64,000 nucleotides of DNA from Chryseolinea soli (GTDB lineage: Bacteria; Bacteroidota; Bacteroidia; Cytophagales; Cyclobacteriaceae). The position numbers were made by a program, and so were the translations under genes. Under the pieces are notes generated by a model that saw nothing but the letters and a program-made list of their open reading frames with translations, did no database searches and was not told where the DNA came from. Location of the stretch: positions 4,898,001 through 4,962,000 of the forward strand of contig NZ_CP032382.1 in NCBI RefSeq assembly GCF_003589925.1, given 5' to 3'. This document shows, in pieces, positions 12,552-21,069 of this stretch. The number at the start of each line of letters is the position of its first letter. The stretch's first letter is position 1.

Positions 12552-12803
12552 ATGATTCGAGCGGTGATTTATCTTTTCAATCTGCTGCTGATAGCAGTTA
12601 TTATCCAAAGGGTAATTGCCATTGACAATGACAAAGCCCACCTTATCTTTTTATTTTATTACCCTGCGCTATTGTTGCTTAATTTATTGATCGGCGTTGT
12701 TTTAAAAATAGCAAAACGGGAGAGCTACCGGGATTTCTGGCAACTTTGTATTTGGATGGGGTGTTTGTTTATTCCGACATATCTTATTTTGATTTCGCTA
12801 TAA
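12552..12803 (+). CDS. Small three-helix membrane protein, unknown
   Basis: 83 residues made almost entirely of three hydrophobic segments (about 5-22, 31-52 and 64-82) with a short basic loop KIAKRESYRD. No family recognised. It is separated by only 19 bp from the next gene and both are markedly AT-rich compared with the ABC exporter upstream, so they are probably one transcription unit of foreign or fast-evolving origin. Confidence 0.65.
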   Translation: MIRAVIYLFNLLLIAVIIQRVIAIDNDKAHLIFLFYYPALLLLNLLIGVVLKIAKRESYRDFWQLCIWMGCLFIPTYLILISL

Positions 12804-12822
12804 TTGCGATAACGCCTGCACT

Positions 12823-13197
12823 ATGGGTATTTATCTCGAAAATTCTCAGCTCATAACCTATCTAAGATTAGGAAAAAGAATTGAGCAATGGCTTGGAACA
12901 ACAAAGGAACAGGAGGAAACGATTATCAAATGGTTATCAATTGAGTTACAAAAAGATGGATCCTACGGGGTTACGTATCTTGAGGTATTCGATGAGGGAA
13001 ACGAAGATTTCCTGGATATTTATGAGTTTAGCGCGCCTGATCCTGATTTGGAATTTGGAGAAAGTGATTCCTTTGCAACCTGCGAAGAGGCTTTGGAGTT
13101 TTCCCGTCAAAAATACGGTTGCCGTGATGACAAATTTGTAACCGCGGGACAAATTCAAGAAGAATATCGACTATATCTATTGTCGCGAAATGAATAA
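12823..13197 (+). CDS. Acidic soluble protein, unknown
   Basis: 124 residues, acidic, no signal peptide or membrane segment. Charged and aromatic residues alternate in the middle (VTYLEVFDEGNEDFLDIYEF). Not recognised. Its AT-rich composition and pairing with a small membrane protein recall immunity or accessory gene pairs, but no toxin gene is visible nearby. The start ATGGGTATT is preceded by a purine-poor stretch, so translational coupling to the gene before it is possible. Confidence 0.65.
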   Translation: MGIYLENSQLITYLRLGKRIEQWLGTTKEQEETIIKWLSIELQKDGSYGVTYLEVFDEGNEDFLDIYEFSAPDPDLEFGESDSFATCEEALEFSRQKYGCRDDKFVTAGQIQEEYRLYLLSRNE

Positions 13198-13299
13198 CAA
13201 AGTCATAGGTAGAAATTCAGGCAAAGCAAATACGATTTATTCATCGCTTCTACGGTGACGATTCATAAGTAAAGTAATTTGACGTTGCTGCCTCACCCG

Positions 13300-13491
13300 C
13301 TAGACACCCTGACCTCCTTCTTGCTTTCCCGACGCCCGCAACCATCGCTTCAACTCCTCGTGTTCCGCGGGCGCCAGGTAAGCAAATGTCTTTTTATACT
13401 CCTTCCTGAAAAGCCTTCTGCTGAAACTCATTTTCTCCAGGATAATCTTGCAATACTCCAACATACTTTTCTTCAGGTCCTTCCTCCTCAT
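13300..13491 (-). CDS. Small basic protein, conserved-looking (63 aa)
   Basis: 63 residues, highly basic, with the pattern MRRKDLKKSMLEYCKIILEK then FSRRLFRKEYKKTF and a terminal helix EHEELKRWLR. This pattern resembles short conserved Cytophagales proteins I have seen repeatedly but cannot name; function unknown. It lies 63 bp downstream of the deaminase on the same strand, so it is probably the third gene of the Rnk-deaminase operon. Confidence 0.6.
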   Translation of the reverse strand: MRRKDLKKSMLEYCKIILEKMSFSRRLFRKEYKKTFAYLAPAEHEELKRWLRASGKQEGGQGV

Positions 13492-13554
13492 GCTTTTTTC
13501 AATTTATCCGAAAACTGTTTTCTTATGTCAAATTTTCCTGTGGAGCACACGCAC

Positions 13555-14157
13555 CTATCGTTTAATCCAGCCATCATCTCCAGCAAACTTTTCCAGATCT
13601 GACGGTTGCAAAACCAACTCCGGTATGGGCCGGTAGGCGGGATCTTGTTTCAAGGCCTCAGAGACCCTCCGGTTTGATGCGTTTGCAGCTTTCATTTGCG
13701 TGGTGTCCGACGGCATGTAGTACACAATCCTTTCAACATCAACCATGTAAAGCAGCGCCAGGCACATGGGGCATGGTTTGCTGCTCGTGTAGAGCACACT
13801 TCCTTCCAGTGTTGTGGCGCCCGAATAGTTACACGCCGCTTTCACGGCTTCCATTTCCCCGTGTGCCGAGGGATCGATGAGTTGTGCCGACCTGTCGCGC
13901 CCTTCGCCAATAACCTTCCCGTCTTTCACCACCAGGCTTGTTGGAGGCGCGTCATTTGCTGCATCCGTGAACGCAGCACTCATGTTCAAAACCTTTTTCA
14001 TAAAAGCATAGTCCTCTGCGGTGGCGTTGGCTTTCAATTTTGCCATGCGCTGTTGCCGTCGCCTTTGCTGCTCCATCCGACTCGCTGCGTTGTGGTTGAC
14101 ATACGCACCCATAATAAGCAACGTCAGGAGCAAAAGAAATTTCGGTAGCGTCGTCAT
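13555..14157 (-). CDS. Membrane-anchored nucleoside/guanine deaminase-like protein
   Basis: 200 residues of the cytidine/guanine deaminase fold. Zinc-ligand motifs are H99-G-E101 (usually HAE, here HGE) and PCPMC with Cys129 and Cys132. Unusually, an N-terminal hydrophobic segment (about 6-20) is followed by a strongly basic stretch (RMEQQRRRQQRMAKLK). By the positive-inside rule this suggests an anchor with the catalytic domain in the cytoplasm. Its start codon overlaps the stop of the upstream Rnk-like gene (ATGA), indicating translational coupling. Substrate could be guanine or another nucleobase; not determinable here. The Gly for Ala change next to the zinc ligand may be tolerated. Confidence 0.85.
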   Translation of the reverse strand: MTTLPKFLLLLTLLIMGAYVNHNAASRMEQQRRRQQRMAKLKANATAEDYAFMKKVLNMSAAFTDAANDAPPTSLVVKDGKVIGEGRDRSAQLIDPSAHGEMEAVKAACNYSGATTLEGSVLYTSSKPCPMCLALLYMVDVERIVYYMPSDTTQMKAANASNRRVSEALKQDPAYRPIPELVLQPSDLEKFAGDDGWIKR

Positions 14158-14564
14158 AACCAGACGTCACCCACCGATTCCGGTTGATAGGTAACTTTTA
14201 AGATTTGGAAATTCCCATGTCCGCCCGGCACCTTCCACGACACAATATCACCGGCCTGCATGCCCAGCAATGCTGTGCCGATGCTGGAAAATACAGAGAC
14301 TTTCCGCGCGCGATGGTCGGCGTCCTGGGGGTAGGTGATGGTGAGCTCAGCTTCGCGCCGGTTTGAAAGATCTTTCAGCAGCACCCTGGAGTTCATGGTG
14401 ACAACGTTTTCCGGAATCTGTTCCGGCAACACACGTTCAGCATCCCTGAGCGCGCGAAACAATTGCGCTATTACCTCGGGCATCTTGTTGGTTTCGGTTG
14501 AGAAGCCAATCAATCCGGTGAGTCGCTGATAATCATTATCGGTAACCATAATTTTCTTTTCCAT
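14154..14564 (-). CDS. Rnk/GreA-GreB family transcription factor
   Basis: 137 residues from ATG 14564 (MEKKIMVTDNDY); ATG 14570 is an alternative. The short N-terminal helical region and the GreA/B C-terminal domain (SSIGTALLGMQAGDIVSWKV) resemble Rnk-type regulators that bind RNA polymerase without the long GreA coiled coil. A good sigma-54 element at 14589-14604 lies immediately upstream and would lie inside the gene if the longer frame to 14690 were used, which supports the short start. It is the first gene of a leftward set with the deaminase and the 63-residue protein, divergent from the histidine kinase. Confidence 0.85.
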   Translation of the reverse strand: MEKKIMVTDNDYQRLTGLIGFSTETNKMPEVIAQLFRALRDAERVLPEQIPENVVTMNSRVLLKDLSNRREAELTITYPQDADHRARKVSVFSSIGTALLGMQAGDIVSWKVPGGHGNFQILKVTYQPESVGDVWL

Positions 14565-14588
14565 GACCATTCGATTTAAATACACCGT

Positions 14589-14604
14589 TGCAGTATCCAT
14601 GCCA
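14589..14604 (-). promoter_or_regulatory. Sigma-54 type -24/-12 promoter element
   Basis: Reading the minus strand: TGGCAT-GGATA-CTGCA, against the consensus TGGCAC-N5-TTGCA. The GG and GC dinucleotides have the exact 10-base spacing and only two positions differ. Transcription would begin near 14579, 9-15 bases before the Rnk-like start. It lies beside a sigma-54 activator gene pair. Identified by eye. Confidence 0.6.
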
Positions 14605-14778
14605 GACAAACACACCTCTGGCGCCTCCCTTTCCGTGGTGCCGGCGAGCCAGGCCGGCCAAAAACTACTCACTGGGGAGAATCTCTCCACCTGCGGTCTG
14701 CATCGGAAATGGAACGATTTGCTGCATTTAATCCTTCAGTCTTTATACCTTTAATGCATCGAATCCCCAAACTGAAAG

Positions 14779-15888
14779 ATGAATACTACTGACATAAAAC
14801 TGAAAGAAAGGGTCAAAGAGCTGAAATGTCTTTACGACTTATCCAAAATCGCATGGGAGGCCGATAACGATCTGAATGCTATCCTCACCAAGACACTCGC
14901 CATTCTTCCGCAGGCCATGCAGTATCCCGACGTAGCCGAAGTCTGCATTGTCGCAAACAAAGTAAACTACGCCACCAAAGGATTTTCAAAATGTCGCCGT
15001 CCGATGACGACGACGCTCGGAATGGGTAAAAAGAAATACGGAACGATACAGATCGGATACCGGGCTCCCTTAAAAAGCCACCCGGCAAAATATGCCTTCC
15101 TCGCCGAGGAAAAGAACCTGGTCAGGATCGTGGCGCGGGAATTGTCGCTGTTCATTAAACGGGCCTCTATCGAGGAGGAAAAGCAGAAATTGGAGATGCA
15201 ACTGCAGCACTCCGAGCGGCTCGCTTTTGTTGGGGAGCTGTCGGCCGGTATTGCGCACGAATTGAACGAGCCCCTGGGAAGGATATTGGGGTTTGCCCAA
15301 TTGATAAAAAAGACCGGGGCCTTGGATGAACAAAATGAAAGCGACATCGAACGGATCATCAAGGCTTCGCTCTATACGCGCGAGATCATCAAGAAGCTGA
15401 TGATCTTCTCCCGGCAGATGCCGCGCCAGATCAATAGCGTGAACCTCAATACAATCGTGTCCAATATTCTTTACTTTATCGATATCCGTTTTCAAAGCCG
15501 GGGGATAAAAATTGTGGAGAAGCTTGATCCCCACCTTCCGCTGATCCAAGCCGATGAGGTGCAGATGAGCCAGGTGCTGGTCAACCTCATCACGAATGCG
15601 ATTCATGCCATGACGCGCGGCGGCCAGCTCACGGTGACGACCGAACGCAAAACGAACCAGGTTAGCCTGACCGTCAAGGATACGGGCACCGGGATGTCGC
15701 CGGAGGTCAGAAAGAAGATCTTTGAACCCTTCTACTCCACCAAGCCGGTGGGGCAAGGCACCGGCTTGGGGCTTTCCGTGGTGCTGGGGATCGTGGAGGA
15801 TCACAAGGGAAAAATACTCGTGAGCAGCACGGCCGGCAAAGGTTCAAAATTTCAGGTGTTGCTTCCGCTAAAACAGAATGGTAAATGA
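14779..15888 (+). CDS. Sensor histidine kinase (NtrB-like, cytoplasmic)
   Basis: 369 residues, no membrane segment. A GAF-like sensor region covers about 10-125, a coiled linker about 132-150, then the HisKA domain with the phosphoacceptor in LSAGIAHELNEPLGR, and a HATPase domain with N-box QVLVNLITNAIHAM and G-boxes DTGTGMS and GQGTGLGLS. It would phosphorylate the adjacent sigma-54 activator, whose start overlaps this gene's end. The input signal is unknown; the absence of membrane helices suggests a cytoplasmic cue. Divergent from the Rnk-like operon. Confidence 0.93.
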   Translation: MNTTDIKLKERVKELKCLYDLSKIAWEADNDLNAILTKTLAILPQAMQYPDVAEVCIVANKVNYATKGFSKCRRPMTTTLGMGKKKYGTIQIGYRAPLKSHPAKYAFLAEEKNLVRIVARELSLFIKRASIEEEKQKLEMQLQHSERLAFVGELSAGIAHELNEPLGRILGFAQLIKKTGALDEQNESDIERIIKASLYTREIIKKLMIFSRQMPRQINSVNLNTIVSNILYFIDIRFQSRGIKIVEKLDPHLPLIQADEVQMSQVLVNLITNAIHAMTRGGQLTVTTERKTNQVSLTVKDTGTGMSPEVRKKIFEPFYSTKPVGQGTGLGLSVVLGIVEDHKGKILVSSTAGKGSKFQVLLPLKQNGK

Positions 15889-17233
15889 CATGAAGAAAGA
15901 AGAATTTGTTGCGATCAACGTATTGGTGGTGGATGATTCACCGGAAAGTGTGGAACTCATCAAACGCAACCTGCAGTCGAAGGGCTATGCCATCTATACG
16001 GCGCACAATGTTCAATCGGCCATCAAGCTTTTGGGAAGCGTGGCGTTTGACCTGTTGATCACCGATCTGCAAATGCCGGGAGGAAATGGAATCGAATTGG
16101 TGCGCCATACGTCGGAAAATTACAAAGGCATCGGCATTCTTGTGATCACGGGTTTCCCCTCCATTCAGGGAGCAGTTGAATCCATCAAGATCGGCGCGGA
16201 AGAATACCTCGTGAAGTCGTTTACCGACGAGGAATTGTTTACAGCCGTGGAAAGGGTTTTGCACAAGATGCACAAGCAAGCCAGGGCATCCTCCAAACCG
16301 GCGATGCAAAACTTCGGGATCATCGGACATTCCGAGGGGATGAAGAAAGTTTATAACACCATCAACAAGGCTAAACCCACGCGTGCCACCGTCCTGATTC
16401 AAGGCGAAAGCGGCACGGGAAAAGAATTGGTTGCGCGTGCCTTGCACTATGGCGGCCAGGCTTCGGCTGCCCCATTTGTGCCGGTGAACTGTGGCGGGAT
16501 CCCGGACGCGCTCCTGGAGAGCGAACTCTTTGGCTATGTGAAAGGGGCCTTTACGGGCGCCACCGAAACCCGGGCCGGCTTCTTCCAAACCGCCGACGGC
16601 GGCACCATCTTTTTGGATGAGATCAGCAACACGAGTCTGGCCATGCAGGCAAAACTATTGCGCGTGCTCCAGGAGAAGGAATTCTACATGGTGGGATCAA
16701 AAAAGACCCTCAAAGTGAACGTGCGGGTAGTGGCCGCGACCAACGTTGACCTGATGCAGTTGGTGAAGAAAGGACTGTTTCGCGAGGACCTTTACTATCG
16801 CCTGAATATTATTTCCATCGACCTGCCCCCGCTGCGCGAAAGAGGCGACGATCTGCTCGAGCTCATGGATTTCTTCCTGTCGAAATATGTTCATGAGCTA
16901 GGGAAACCACCTATGAAATTTACGCCGAAAGCGCTCCGGGCCATGCAAGCCTATGCGTGGCCGGGAAACGTCCGGGAACTTCAGAATCTTATCCACCGCG
17001 TGGTGATCCTGGCCGAGGACAACAGCATTGACATTCCCGACCTGCCCGAATCGTTTCGCTTTTCGGGGGTCAGAACAAAGGGACTTGACCGGCCCCTGGA
17101 AGATGTTGAACGCGAGTACATCCAGGATGCCTTGGCGGCTCACAAAAATAATATTTCAAAAACGGCCATCGTGCTGGGGATCGATCGGAAGACCCTCCGG
17201 GATAAGCTGAAGAAGTACAAACTGTCTGTTTAG
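15878..17233 (+). CDS. Sigma-54-dependent response regulator (NtrC family)
   Basis: 451 residues: REC domain with phosphoacceptor in LLITDLQMPG and the conserved Lys in YLVKSF (about 12-130), AAA+ domain with Walker A GESGTGKE, the sigma-54 contact loop GAFTGA and Walker B GTIFLDEIS (about 145-385), and a Fis-type helix-turn-helix at the end (KTAIVLGIDRKTLRDKLKKY). The start at 15878 overlaps the kinase gene by 11 bp; ATG 15890 is equally possible. Flanking sigma-54-like elements at 14589 and 17319 and a dyad cluster just after its stop suggest it controls both neighbouring gene sets. Confidence 0.95.
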   Translation: MVNDMKKEEFVAINVLVVDDSPESVELIKRNLQSKGYAIYTAHNVQSAIKLLGSVAFDLLITDLQMPGGNGIELVRHTSENYKGIGILVITGFPSIQGAVESIKIGAEEYLVKSFTDEELFTAVERVLHKMHKQARASSKPAMQNFGIIGHSEGMKKVYNTINKAKPTRATVLIQGESGTGKELVARALHYGGQASAAPFVPVNCGGIPDALLESELFGYVKGAFTGATETRAGFFQTADGGTIFLDEISNTSLAMQAKLLRVLQEKEFYMVGSKKTLKVNVRVVAATNVDLMQLVKKGLFREDLYYRLNIISIDLPPLRERGDDLLELMDFFLSKYVHELGKPPMKFTPKALRAMQAYAWPGNVRELQNLIHRVVILAEDNSIDIPDLPESFRFSGVRTKGLDRPLEDVEREYIQDALAAHKNNISKTAIVLGIDRKTLRDKLKKYKLSV

Positions 17234-17267
17234 TGGTACAAAAAGTACCACTGGTTCAAATTTGACC
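17233..17267. promoter_or_regulatory. Cluster of dyads: candidate activator-binding sites
   Basis: Directly after the activator stop codon, GTGGTAC (17233-17239) and GTACCAC (17245-17251) form a perfect 7-bp dyad with an AAAAA spacer. It is immediately followed by TGGTTCAAATTTGACCA, which contains the 10-bp palindrome TCAAATTTGA. Four TGGT-type half-sites are thus arrayed over about 35 bp, some 70-90 bp upstream of a sigma-54-like element at 17319, a usual distance for NtrC-type enhancer sites. A GGGGC..GCCCC hairpin follows around 17277-17291. The function is inferred. Confidence 0.5.
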
Positions 17268-17318
17268 ACTTCTTTCGGGGCAATTCGCCCCACACTTCCT
17301 TGTTTCGCCGACAATTCA

Positions 17319-17333
17319 TGGTACGGCTTTTGG
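17319..17333 (+). promoter_or_regulatory. Possible sigma-54 -24/-12 element
   Basis: TGGTAC-GGCTT-TTGG has the -24 GG and the right spacing but carries G instead of the usually invariant C of the -12 GC pair. Transcription would start near 17344, just before ATG 17357. Weaker than the element at 14589; judged mainly by its position downstream of the dyad cluster. Confidence 0.35.
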
Positions 17334-17356
17334 GTAGCACCTCCATAAAGCACCTT

Positions 17357-17626
17357 ATGCTTTCTGCTGAATGTCTCGAAACGCTACTTCACCATGCACT
17401 GCGGGAGCTTTGTCCGGATTGCGTTCATGTGGAGGGCTGTTCTTATCGAAGGACTACGAAAAAAATAATCGTCCAGTGTGAGTTGTATGTGGGCGTTGGG
17501 CAAACGGGAGTCGAGCACGCTAGTCCGGATGTTTCGCAAGGGCTTTGCAGGAGCTGTACCAAGGCAAATGTATGTCGGTTGCCCGGGCGGCACCTGGGGG
17601 TGTTCCATTGTGAGGACTACACATAA
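17357..17626 (+). CDS. Small cysteine-rich protein, putative metal binding
   Basis: 89 residues from ATG 17357; frames reaching 17300 or 17318 would overlap the putative promoter. Two cysteine clusters are seen: LCPDCVHVEGC near residue 18-28 and, at the C-terminus, GLCRSCTKANVC...GVFHCEDY. The latter resembles a short Bacteroidota motif, LCxxCxxxxxCxxxxxxxGVxxCxEY, that I recall from many uncharacterised small proteins. A zinc or iron site is likely; function unknown. Followed after 13 bp by the YwqK-like gene, forming a set that ends with TerC. Confidence 0.6.
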   Translation: MLSAECLETLLHHALRELCPDCVHVEGCSYRRTTKKIIVQCELYVGVGQTGVEHASPDVSQGLCRSCTKANVCRLPGRHLGVFHCEDYT

Positions 17627-17639
17627 ACAGGCACGATCC

Positions 17640-18035
17640 ATGACGGAAATTATAAACCACTTGCTCGGGAAAACGAAACCCAAACTCAAAGAAGGACGAT
17701 GGAAGGCTTTCAACCGCCACGCGGTCCTGATCGCGGAAGGTTGCTACGTCCACAACCTGAAACATGGGCCATGGCGCGAATATTATGATACCGGCGAATT
17801 GATGCTGGAGGAGTGTTACGAGAACGGACTGCCCCACGGCCGGTATGCTTCGTATCATCCTTGCGGCGCACTGGTGAGCGAAGGCGTCTACGTGCAGGGC
17901 AGGCGTGAAGGGTATTTTAAGATCTACGATAAAGCAGGGAAGCATATAAAGTCCCTTCTTTTTATAAATAACGATTTAATAAACGAAGTTCATGTCCATA
18001 GCCACGAAAAAGCAGAAGGAAGAGACGGGAGTTGA
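17640..18035 (+). CDS. YwqK/MORN-repeat protein
   Basis: 131 residues from ATG 17640 (MTEIINHLLGKTKPKLKEGR). It contains three to four MORN-like beta-hairpin repeats, each with a G-x-W/Y-x-x-Y pattern (HGPWREYYDTGELM, HGRYASYHPCGALV, EGYFKIYDKAG), as in the YwqK family often labelled toxin-antitoxin antitoxin. No signal peptide. The role is unknown; it could be a scaffold or binding platform. Its 3' end overlaps the start of a 38-residue membrane peptide by 44 bp in another frame. Confidence 0.75.
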   Translation: MTEIINHLLGKTKPKLKEGRWKAFNRHAVLIAEGCYVHNLKHGPWREYYDTGELMLEECYENGLPHGRYASYHPCGALVSEGVYVQGRREGYFKIYDKAGKHIKSLLFINNDLINEVHVHSHEKAEGRDGS

Positions 18036-18108
18036 CTATATGTTAATTGCCATTATTGCGGTATATTGGTTGACCACCTTGCTGCACGGGACCCTGTTCT
18101 ATGAATGA
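17992..18108 (+). CDS. 38-residue single-helix membrane peptide upstream of TerC
   Basis: ATG 17992 to TGA 18108 encodes a basic N-terminus (MSIATKKQKEETGVDY), one hydrophobic helix (MLIAIIAVYWLTTLLHG) and a short tail. It overlaps the YwqK-like gene by 44 bp and the TerC start by 8 bp, the layout of a translationally coupled small gene. No family recognised. It could be a TerC partner or simply a coupling leader. The overlap at both ends and the clean helix argue against chance. Confidence 0.55.
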   Translation: MSIATKKQKEETGVDYMLIAIIAVYWLTTLLHGTLFYE

Positions 18109-19027
18109 CACCACTATTCTCTGGATCGCTTTCAACCTTTTTGTGCTGGCGATGTTGGCCCTCGACCTGGGTGTATTTCATCGCAAATCGCACGACGTCA
18201 CCCCCAAAGAAGCGCTCACCTGGACGGCGGTGTGGGTGACGCTGGCGCTGCTTTTCAACGTCTTTCTGTATTACTATTTCGACAAAGAGACCGCGGTCCA
18301 ATTTTTCACCGGATACCTGATTGAAAAGTCGCTCAGCGTTGACAACATCTTTGTCATCATCATGATCTTTTCATACTTCAATGTTCCCACCGCCTATCAA
18401 CATAAGGTATTATTCTGGGGCATACTGGGTGCGTTGGTCATGCGGGTGATCTTTATTCTGTCGGGTGTGGAACTCATCCATCGGTTCCATTGGCTTATTT
18501 ACATTTTTGGAGGCTTCCTGGTGATCACCGGGATTCGCATGCTGGTCGCCGGGGATGCCAAATTAGAGCCCGAAAAAAATCCTTTGGTCAAGCTGGCCCG
18601 CAAACTATTTCCTTTCACACCAACCTTTGAAGGAGACCGGTTCTTTGTGAGACGTGATGCCAAGCGGTGGGCCACGCCATTGTTCCTGGTGGTGATCCTC
18701 ATCGAGGCAACGGACCTTATTTTTGCAGTCGATTCCATACCGGCCATCATCGCCATCTCCGACGATCCTTTTATTGTGTATACGTCCAACGTGTTCGCTA
18801 TCCTCGGATTGCGTTCACTATACTTTGCGCTCTCGGGAATAGAAAAATATTTTGAGTATCTAAAATACGGTCTTTCGGCCATCCTTATCTTTGTAGGGGT
18901 TAAAATGAGCATCACCGATCTTTACAAGATCCCGATCAATTGGTCACTCATTGTCATTGTCGCGATACTTGCCGTGGCCATGTTGGCGTCTGTATGGGCG
19001 CAGAAGAAAAAACCTGACGCCGCATAA
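18101..19027 (+). CDS. TerC/Alx-family integral membrane protein
   Basis: 308 residues with about nine hydrophobic segments and the TerC signature (ALDLGVFHRKSH near the start, LIEKSLSVDNIFVI, ATDLIFAVDSIPAI). Asp residues in the last two motifs are the conserved membrane acidic sites. Family members (Alx, TerC) act in manganese homeostasis or efflux and alkaline or tellurite stress, and some metallate exported proteins. It ends the Cys-rich/YwqK/38-aa set, which may be induced by the sigma-54 two-component system upstream (inferred). Confidence 0.93.
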   Translation: MNDTTILWIAFNLFVLAMLALDLGVFHRKSHDVTPKEALTWTAVWVTLALLFNVFLYYYFDKETAVQFFTGYLIEKSLSVDNIFVIIMIFSYFNVPTAYQHKVLFWGILGALVMRVIFILSGVELIHRFHWLIYIFGGFLVITGIRMLVAGDAKLEPEKNPLVKLARKLFPFTPTFEGDRFFVRRDAKRWATPLFLVVILIEATDLIFAVDSIPAIIAISDDPFIVYTSNVFAILGLRSLYFALSGIEKYFEYLKYGLSAILIFVGVKMSITDLYKIPINWSLIVIVAILAVAMLASVWAQKKKPDAA

Positions 19028-19131
19028 GTAAACCTTAAAAAAAATATCCGGTCCTTTGATGCTAAACAGGTATCCTGGAGATATCGTATATTGCGAAACG
19101 CTAATTTCCACAAATCTATCCCGTCTCGCCG

Positions 19132-21069
19132 ATGGCTTTTAGACTGCTCTTTTGCTGTTTCCTGTGCGGTGTAATGATCGACGCCCGCGCGCAATCCGAT
19201 CTGATCACCGAGAGCATTTTTGGTTACTTTGCTTCATCCAACAGGCTTCTCGAATATGAGAACATCACCGTCGATTGGAAGATGGACGGTCCCACCCAGG
19301 TCCAGTTCAACGAAGGACTCAACAACCTTTTTGAAAACAATCCAAACCAGGCCGAAGTCAATTTCAGCAACGTGATCGCCAAGGATTCTTTGTTGTGGCA
19401 AGCCTATTACTACCGGGGGATCTGCTATAAACAACTCGAAAAAAGAAAAAAAGCGCGAAGCGACCTGAAACGCGCCATGCAACAACACGGCCCCTTCTTT
19501 GAAGGCTACATGGAAATGGGCAAGGTGGAGCAATTGGAACTCAATGCGACTGAGGCACAAAAGAACTTTAACAAGGGAGAGCGATTGGCGCCATCAAAGG
19601 CGGTGATCTATTACCTGCAAGGCAACCTCGCGCTGGACATGACGCAGCGCAAAGAGGCCTTAAAGGACTACGCCACCTGTTTACAATACGATAGCCTTTT
19701 TTCCGACGCCCGCATCCACCTGGGACTGATCAAGATCGCGACCGAAGGCAAATCGGACGTGGCGCTCCCGTATTTGAACAAAGTGTTGCAATACGATTCG
19801 CTGAACCGTCATGCGTTGTTGTTCCGGAGCCTGCTCTCCGCCGATACCCGTCAAAACCTGGCCGATCTCAACAAGGCCGTACAGGTAGACCCGGCGAACA
19901 TCACGGTGCGCTATCTCCGCGGCCTGGCATTCACCCAACAAGGCAACTACGACCGCGCCTTTCCTGATTTCAACAAAGTGATCGAAGGAACCTTCGAAAG
20001 CGATAATAATTTTGAAGGACGGCAAACCTGGATCGACAAGAAGATCGATATCCAAAATGCCGGGTCCTACACGGTGCGGCGCGTATACGGACTGCCGGAT
20101 AAAGAGGCCGAAAAAATAAAGAAAGCCTTTTGTCTCCTGGTGCTCGGCTCGGATGCCGAAGCCCTGGCCACATTGGAGCAGACGAAATTGAAAAATTATG
20201 AACCGCTGTGTCTGTTCCTCCGTGGTGTGGCCAGCGAACACATGGGAAAACATATCGATGCCCTGGAGTTTTACAACCTCGCGCTGGCCCGCGACAACGA
20301 GATCCTGGATGCCCATAAAAAACGCGGCATCTATGAACAGGAGATGAAGGAGTGGGACAAATCCATCGCCGATTTCACCGACGTGCTGCGCCTGAGTCCG
20401 GAGACGTTTATTGCCTACAAATGGAGAGGTGTTTCCCACTACAACCTGGGCAAATACGAAAAAGCCATCGCAGACTACACGCAGTATCTCAAGCGCGACA
20501 CCACCGACCTCGAAACCATTGGCTACCGGGCCGTGGCCTACGAACAAACCGGCCAATACCTGGAGTCGTGCGTCGACTACGCCGACTCCCAAAACAGACA
20601 CGTGCTCGACCTGAACAAACTCGACGGTGCCCTGGATTCACTGCTCAGCCTAAAGGATACAGCGAAAGCCTATTACTATGCCGACCGGATCACGAAGAAC
20701 GTCCGCTACTTCACGGAAGGCTACGTGATAAAATTCAGGGTCATGATGAAGAAGGGGGACTGGGACGGTATCGAAAAAGAAGTGTATGTGGCGGCAAACA
20801 ATTTCCGCCAGGGCTTGAACAAGAAAGATCATTCCTATGTCCTCACCGTGGCCGGCGCCACCTCTACGCGGAACAAGCGATATGATGAAGCCATCAACAT
20901 GCTCACGGAAGCTATCAAGGTTGATAAGGAAAATGCATGGGCATTGTTGGAGCGCGGAAAGACCTGGCAAGCAATGGGCAAGAAAAGCAAAGCGTCTTCG
21001 GATTGGAAGAAGGCGATGGCGCTGGGGCATCCAGAGGCGGGCGGGTTATTGAGTGGGATAGGGGATTGA
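19132..21069 (+). CDS. Secreted tetratricopeptide-repeat protein
   Basis: 645 residues. A signal peptide ends near ARAQ (about residue 21), after which roughly fifteen TPR-like helical hairpins fill the protein (e.g. WQAYYYRGICYKQLEKRKKA, WALLERGKTWQAMGKKSKAS). No enzymatic domain is visible. Secreted TPR proteins usually assemble periplasmic or outer-membrane complexes; the partner is unknown. Separated from TerC by 104 bp with no terminator seen, so partial read-through is possible. The next gene starts 16 bp after the stop. Confidence 0.9.
   Translation: MAFRLLFCCFLCGVMIDARAQSDLITESIFGYFASSNRLLEYENITVDWKMDGPTQVQFNEGLNNLFENNPNQAEVNFSNVIAKDSLLWQAYYYRGICYKQLEKRKKARSDLKRAMQQHGPFFEGYMEMGKVEQLELNATEAQKNFNKGERLAPSKAVIYYLQGNLALDMTQRKEALKDYATCLQYDSLFSDARIHLGLIKIATEGKSDVALPYLNKVLQYDSLNRHALLFRSLLSADTRQNLADLNKAVQVDPANITVRYLRGLAFTQQGNYDRAFPDFNKVIEGTFESDNNFEGRQTWIDKKIDIQNAGSYTVRRVYGLPDKEAEKIKKAFCLLVLGSDAEALATLEQTKLKNYEPLCLFLRGVASEHMGKHIDALEFYNLALARDNEILDAHKKRGIYEQEMKEWDKSIADFTDVLRLSPETFIAYKWRGVSHYNLGKYEKAIADYTQYLKRDTTDLETIGYRAVAYEQTGQYLESCVDYADSQNRHVLDLNKLDGALDSLLSLKDTAKAYYYADRITKNVRYFTEGYVIKFRVMMKKGDWDGIEKEVYVAANNFRQGLNKKDHSYVLTVAGATSTRNKRYDEAINMLTEAIKVDKENAWALLERGKTWQAMGKKSKASSDWKKAMALGHPEAGGLLSGIGD

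Follow-up and report, generated by a model that had tools for sequence, protein, structure and literature searches.

Which genes does a two-component pair of Chryseolinea soli control, and from what kind of promoter? The question is raised by a stretch of 64,000 nucleotides (positions 4,898,001 to 4,962,000 of contig NZ_CP032382.1; hereafter the window), in which genes for a sensor kinase and an NtrC-type activator lie between two other gene sets. The original prediction, made from the letters alone, was that a sigma-54 regulon apparently surrounds a two-component system in this region. All genes named in that prediction were confirmed at 13300-19027 of the window. We found that the kinase and activator genes (14779-17233) have a predicted sigma-54 promoter on either side, and that a 17-bp dyad lies 85 bp above the -24 element of each promoter. 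In line with the proposal, the genome, a single 8.24-Mb contig, has one match to a sigma-54 factor (rpoN), and the motifs of the activator are intact (phospho-acceptor, Walker A, Walker B, GAFTGA and a Fis-type helix-turn-helix). We put the probability that the pair stands at the centre of its own sigma-54 regulon, read from the flanking promoters and serving a stress or redox/metal response, at roughly 85%. The regulators and control elements are given below together with their state in seven related loci (L032-L038; genome G036 contributed both L035 and L036, and L036 is on the same contig as L050).

14604 to 14589, minus strand: leftward -24/-12 element, TGGCATGGATACTGCA, with exact GG/GC spacing, recognisable in L032-L038
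14673-14689, minus strand: putative upstream activating dyad of the leftward promoter, TGGAGAGATTCTCCCCA, 85 bp above the -24 element, with counterparts in relatives
14746-14753, plus strand: TAnnTTTG-like housekeeping box of the kinase-regulator genes, TACCTTTA, conserved in position
14779-15888, plus strand: soluble sensor histidine kinase with a GAF-like N-terminus, HisKA and HATPase_c (Pfam/NCBIfam, AlphaFold, Foldseek)
15878-17233, plus strand: NtrC-type response regulator with a receiver, a sigma-54 AAA+ domain with GAFTGA and a Fis-type helix-turn-helix (Pfam/NCBIfam, motif check)
17234-17250, plus strand: right dyad 1, TGGTACAAAAAGTACCA, 85 bp above the -24 element, identical in L032 and L033
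17252-17268, plus strand: right dyad 2, TGGTTCAAATTTGACCA, 67 bp above the -24 element, from the dyad pattern
17276-17292, plus strand: right dyad 3, CGGGGCAATTCGCCCCA, 43 bp above the -24 element, found among the compared loci in the window and L032 only
17319-17334, plus strand: predicted rightward -24/-12 element, TGGTACGGCTTTTGGG, with GG at -12, kept in L032, L033, L034 and L037

The consensus sigma-54 promoter has -24 and -12 elements with GG and GC 10 bp apart. The leftward element lies exactly where it had been placed, at 14589-14604, matches this spacing precisely and can be recognised in each of the seven loci set against the window, where its -12 part reads TGCA, TGTA or TGCG. When the spacers between the Rnk and kinase genes of the window and L032-L035 were aligned, TGGCAYGGATACTGCA was retained down to 65% kinase identity, with TGGCATGCTTCCTGTA in L035. 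In L036 the Rnk gene is oppositely oriented and is preceded by TGGCATACTTCATGTA, while L037 and L038 carry TGGCACGGATACTGCG and TGGCATGCTTCATGTA, respectively. A 17-bp dyad is present 84-87 and/or 66-69 bp above the -24 element in the window and L032-L036. Placed by the usual distance from -12 to +1, leftward transcription is expected to start near 14578 (minus strand), 8-14 bases ahead of the start codon, and rightward transcription near 17345 (plus strand), 12 bases ahead of the start codon.

A weaker rightward element had been proposed at 17319; it is present, and is kept as TGGTAYGSCTTTTGGR in the window and in four of the seven other loci (L032, L033, L034 and L037). No gene for the cysteine (Cys) protein was found in L034, and there the right promoter precedes the YwqK/MORN gene. 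Well-formed right-hand dyads stand at both 85 and 67 bp in the window, L032 and L033. A scan of 17150-17450 revealed neither a terminator nor a sigma-70-type promoter. The original prediction had also named transcription from TAnnTTTG boxes, in place of the -24/-12 elements, as an outcome that would speak against it; we take TAnnTTTG to be the Bacteroidota housekeeping box. By sequence, neither TAnnTTTG nor TAnnTTTA occurs in the stretches upstream of the two flanking operons of the window. Such a box does precede the kinase gene in 7/7 loci including the window (TAnnTTTG in four; TAnnTTTA in three, among them the window), with a chance expectation of 0.04 per 90 bases.

Both promoters stand above chance because they are conserved in related loci and are accompanied, 85 bp upstream, by a 17-bp dyad. 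Dyad and -24/-12 element form such a composite at just two places in the 64-kb window, each of them beside the pair, while 30 Markov shuffles give an expectation of 0.03. Across 80 stretches of the same genome, amounting to 1.6 Mb (19%), there were no strict composites, and seven relaxed ones among 148 bare promoters. At the genome's 15 activator loci, the composite was found only at the window's own pair, apart from one weak match in L236. The strict dyad occurs at five places in the genome; all flanks were scanned and two of the places (L118 and L120) inspected, and no convincing target was seen. With the loosest pattern, weak matches appeared at a second GreA-like gene (L127), at a second gene resembling that for glutamate dehydrogenase (GDH; L129) and at a Usp gene (L137/L140), where the site is on the opposite strand.

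More independent support comes from the recurrence of these elements behind the regulator gene in other loci. A profile search of genome contigs with the kinase alignment returned at least 80 related loci. In the 80 loci listed (1.2 Mb) there are nine composites compared with 0.6 expected; four lie just behind the regulator, one precedes an Rnk gene and four do neither. Of the 67 loci L037-L103, 58 have a plus-strand regulator and a 300-bp flank, and these were scanned with a pattern settled once the same loci had been inspected; the reverse strand, the regulator gene and shuffled sequences served as controls. A -24/-12 element falls within 250 bp after the regulator stop in 19/58 loci, 18 of them at +116 to +141; the reverse strand and the final 250 bp of the gene have none, and shuffles give 0.24. 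A dyad occurs in the first 60 bp after the regulator in 17/58 loci (controls: none in bases 60-120, three in 120-180, none in the gene's final 60 bp, 0.35 in shuffles). As a separate observation, L053 has a strict composite at 1408, far upstream of its kinase gene and 48 bp ahead of an open reading frame of 364 amino acids (aa).

The kinase, of 369 aa, starts straight with its soluble domain, and no membrane segment was visible on inspection of its sequence. Its N-terminus spans about 135 residues, of which E10, R11, K13, E14, L15, C17 and L18 are invariant in 30 sequences; the invariant cysteine is at most a sensing candidate. No Pfam model scored above cut-off for this domain, GAF_3 was matched weakly by one of 17 family members (E 0.0063), and a PDB sequence search gave no match below E 0.2. 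In the AlphaFold model of the kinase (mean predicted local distance difference test score, pLDDT, 80.5; predicted template modelling score 0.46), the N-terminal order is alpha-alpha-beta4-alpha, a predicted strand order that fits GAF. Among solved structures, Foldseek placed the cytoplasmic core of ZraS closest to the kinase core.

The genes on the two sides of the pair are as follows.

14154-14570, minus strand: Rnk/GreA-type protein, starting at the ATG at 14570 or 14564 (PF01272, NF004396)
13555-14157, minus strand: zinc deaminase resembling guanine deaminases, its N-terminal hydrophobic segment recognised by eye (PF14437 and PF00383 over cut-off)
13300-13491, minus strand: p63, a small basic protein with no Pfam or NCBIfam match
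17357-17626, plus strand: two-repeat Cys4 protein with CxxC-x5-C-x(~10)-C-E-x-Y twice (motif, alignments)
17640-18035, plus strand: YwqK-like MORN_2 protein (PF07661)
17992-18108, plus strand: 38-aa peptide in which one hydrophobic stretch was recognised by eye, its reading frame overlapping both neighbours
18101-19027, plus strand: TerC/Alx membrane protein (PF03741, TIGR03718)

On the left, the Rnk/GreA-type protein scored 67.5 bits against PF01272 (cut-off 26.9). In its 178-aa form it also passes NF004396, nucleoside diphosphate kinase regulator, over residues 44-176 (115.7 bits, cut-off 109). We prefer the ATG starts because the 178-aa form, which begins with GTG in the list of open reading frames, would contain the promoter. 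The protein is presumed to bind RNA polymerase. While it is like Rnk in exceeding this model's cut-off, it differs in being encoded beneath a predicted sigma-54 promoter and beside a two-component system. Second Rnk/GreA copies in L035 (13947-14416) and L038 (11617-12087) have their own dyad (67 bp) and -24/-12 element, an arrangement that looks like growth of the regulon through duplication. The best PDB sequence matches of the deaminase are the guanine deaminases 1wkq and 1tiy. Homologs of p63 lie near the Rnk gene in L032, L033 and L037 and farther off in L036, and 22 database proteins match it, including the window's own, all named 'hypothetical protein'. Because a predicted -24/-12 element with a weak dyad precedes the distant p63 gene of L036, p63 is likely a regulon member in the window's clade, with the caveat that relaxed composites arise by chance (the seven in 1.6 Mb).

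On the right, the YwqK gene is common to the window, L032, L033, L034 and L037, and the 38-aa peptide has 93% identity over 30 residues in L032 and 54% over 39 in L033. TerC/Alx passes TIGR03718 with 434.1 bits (cut-off 246.4). The name of that model (R_switched_Alx) suggests riboswitch control, for which a yybP-ykoY riboswitch would be expected upstream. An Rfam search of 12800-19500 gave no match up to E 0.1, and thus no riboswitch was found for TerC/Alx. The TerC gene adjoins in L032 and L033, lies about 4 kb off in L037 and was not found in the rest of 85 loci, and the deaminase was found solely in the window, L032 and L033 (2/5 loci of one comparison, 0/80 of the loci listed). From this distribution, the deaminase and the adjacent TerC are to be seen as accessories of the closest relatives, and the theme of TerC-type metal/pH handling and nucleobase deamination put forward in the original prediction found no support in that form.

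The persistent neighbours are instead the Rnk/GreA and Cys proteins and, in other groups, GDH and Usp; the conserved synteny looked for in related genomes does exist. The regulator was recognised in 63 of the 80 loci listed; the remaining 17 were left out of the neighbour counts, and the Cys motif is present in two of them (L051 and L092). Among the matches listed, the motif CxxC-x5-C-x(~10)-C-[ESN]-x-[YFH] occurs no more than 2.5 kb downstream of the regulator in 34/63 loci. Elsewhere in these loci its background is 1 per 1.76 Mb strand-bases; the form of the motif was settled after a looser first look, which gave a few more background hits. On the same basis, GDH is encoded within 4 kb of the regulator in 31/63 loci, Rnk/GreA within 5.5 kb downstream in 31/63 and divergently in two, c4, a 130-aa protein, nearby in 29/63 and Usp in 12/63. 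Where several are present, the usual order is Cys, GDH, Rnk, c4, Usp. The window locus differs from the flavobacterial gene order in having no GDH or Usp and a divergent Rnk gene accompanied by p63. The nearest named relative among the matches listed is L037, a metagenome-assembled genome of the Cyclobacteriaceae (kinase identity 74%). Related arrangements recur in distantly related bacteria, and judged from this spread the module is older than had been supposed.

The gene called Cys-rich in the window encodes this same small Cys-motif protein with the motif twofold, and we regard the Cys4 protein as the signature gene of the module. It matched no Pfam or NCBIfam family and nothing in a PDB sequence search below E 0.2, and its AlphaFold model (mean pLDDT 55.8) was not used. 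A database search with a first Cys profile retrieved 15 proteins. In 395 genomes of the phylum, the profile found the window's own protein only (E 1e-5); single-repeat forms were probably missed because a maximum of 12 candidates was scored per genome. Records of the protein are labelled Bacteroidota, WOR-3, Planctomycetaceae, Neomarinimicrobiota and Myxococcota, and the four non-Bacteroidota labels may be wrong because all come from metagenome-assembled genomes. In the loci L055 and L066, from Arenibacter strains, the Cys protein and the predicted promoter occur together. Other features of these neighbourhoods should also be noted. In L043 (11068-14571) and L044 (10990-15122), NuoE-like and NuoF-type proteins with a pyridine nucleotide-disulphide domain are encoded after the Cys gene. 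Two recurring neighbours, c4 (about 130 aa; L059 13048-13440) and c9 (about 120 aa; L096 11161-11505), gave no Pfam match for the one representative of each searched. Proteins of about 200 aa resembling the four-helix-bundle sensor 4HB_MCP_1 are encoded in 10/63 loci (for example L037 5227-5835 and L075 8237-8821).

Several observations weigh against the proposed regulon. The bare -24/-12 pattern (TGGCAYNNNNNYTGCW) is not enriched genome-wide (24 matches versus 36 for the reversed control), and the composite pattern was itself written after the window sites had been seen. With the patterns used, 39/58 loci have no -24/-12 element behind the regulator and 41/58 no dyad in the first 60 bp, and no strict composite is present at the GDH, Usp or glutamine synthetase-type loci of this genome. 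Cys, GDH and Rnk are all missing nearby in 20/63 loci among the matches listed. The spread is patchy, with the kinase in 4/58 relatives and 3/5 of the same genus (E 1e-40), and in 9/395 sampled genomes of the phylum, its own included (E 1e-55, at most five candidates scored in each). Because the sigma-54 activator domain is matched strongly at 15 places in the genome (and weakly at three), pairing this activator with the dyads rests on neighbourhood. Only degenerate forms of the left dyad are seen in L037 and ahead of the first Rnk gene in L038. On the right, L035, L036 and L038 have no such element, the dyads are degenerate in L034 and L037, and the -12 part carries GG and not GC (TTGG, not TTGC). 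The last two of these features, together with the start of dyad 1 right at the regulator stop codon (17234), a possible place for a terminator, would suit an arrangement in which the leftward promoter alone depends on sigma-54, the rightward genes being served by another promoter or by read-through and the dyads being terminator-like or repressor-binding. We consider this very improbable. It leaves unexplained that TGGTAYGSCTTTTGGR is kept in five loci, even before the MORN gene in L034, that three dyads stand in register at 85, 67 and 43 bp in the window and L032, and that 19/58 other loci have a -24/-12 element at the same place, and the scanned stretch before the rightward genes offers no terminator, sigma-70-type promoter or TAnnTTTG/A box to serve it.

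Two further explanations concern the identity of the pair. It could be the lineage's NtrB/NtrC, with GDH and the deaminase as nitrogen genes, as the GDH neighbour in about half of the loci, the guanine-deaminase-like neighbour and ntrC as the activator's best NCBIfam model would suggest. The domain plan of the activator and the 17-bp dyads with a 5-bp spacer, which match the size of an NtrC site, are also alike. However, both proteins fall far below the NCBIfam cut-offs (NtrB 104.6 of 240 bits, NtrC 399.5 of 558.6), no link to glutamine synthetase was found here, with no composite in 1.5-kb flanks of the genome's two glutamine synthetase-family matches, and Rnk, the Cys protein, Usp and TerC are not known to be nitrogen genes; we regard this identity as improbable. 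A metal or envelope-stress system like ZraSR, in which the Cys protein would stand in for ZraP by binding metal and acting back on the kinase, is doubtful. ZraPSR is the zinc/envelope-stress sigma-54 system of Escherichia coli, and its ZraS has a periplasmic zinc-sensing domain. The likeness lies in an NtrC-type pair driving flanking sigma-54 operons from dyads, in a divergent target gene with dyads between, as for zraP and zraSR, in the ZraS core as the nearest solved structure, and in the Cys4 motifs with TerC/Alx alongside. The kinase here is, by contrast, soluble and GAF-like, with no periplasmic domain, the neighbours are Rnk/GreA, the Cys4 protein and GDH, and the NCBIfam scores are again far below cut-off (ZraS 187.1 of 479 bits, ZraR 360.4 of 760). 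Studies of rocG and RocR reportedly provide a Bacillota case of sigma-54 control of glutamate dehydrogenase. The control of GDH in Bacillota, as described in PMC12316311, is alike in placing GDH under predicted or known sigma-54 control, whereas the activator here is two-component and the neighbourhood adds the Cys protein, Rnk and Usp.

The reading we prefer remains a sigma-54 regulon around its own two-component regulators, with a mechanism that is well supported, as far as sequence can tell, as being of the ordinary NtrC type. The soluble kinase would be made from a housekeeping-type promoter and would phosphorylate the activator at the aspartate of ITDLQMP. Activator dimers would bind the 17-bp dyads (consensus YGGGKA-N5-TMCCCR from 28 collected sites) at 84-87 and/or 66-69 bp above -24 and oligomerise, and the AAA+ domain would open sigma-54 RNA polymerase at the two promoters flanking its own genes. 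In vivo, the leftward output would be the Rnk/GreA-type protein with the deaminase and p63, and the rightward output the two-repeat Cys4 protein, which probably binds zinc or another metal, the MORN protein, the micropeptide and TerC. This output may retune RNA polymerase and pyridine-nucleotide metabolism under a stress or redox/metal cue, a theme suggested because the commonest neighbours across bacteria are the Cys protein, GDH and Rnk. A broader version is speculative and, taken as a whole, unlikely: an ancient cross-phylum sigma-54 module in which the Cys4 protein reports metal or redox state to the kinase, with output through the Rnk-type protein on RNA polymerase and through GDH or NuoEF-type subunits on pyridine-nucleotide balance.

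In open-licence literature, available mostly as listings and abstracts, we found no description of this gene content or of the Cys-protein signature, in agreement with the original remark that no described system of this content was known. The main text of PMC12316311 makes no mention of 'TerC', 'COG0782' or 'COG0861'; that broad survey describes sigma-54 as less studied outside the Pseudomonadota, and reports Usp as enriched in Planctomycetia and GDH in Bacillota. From what these sources contain, sigma-54 regulons of Bacteroidota seem little explored. The conserved cis-elements and gene content make this locus a ready test case, with two promoters and a predicted operator, and a small Cys protein that matches no Pfam or NCBIfam family is its marker in loci that carry the labels of five phyla.

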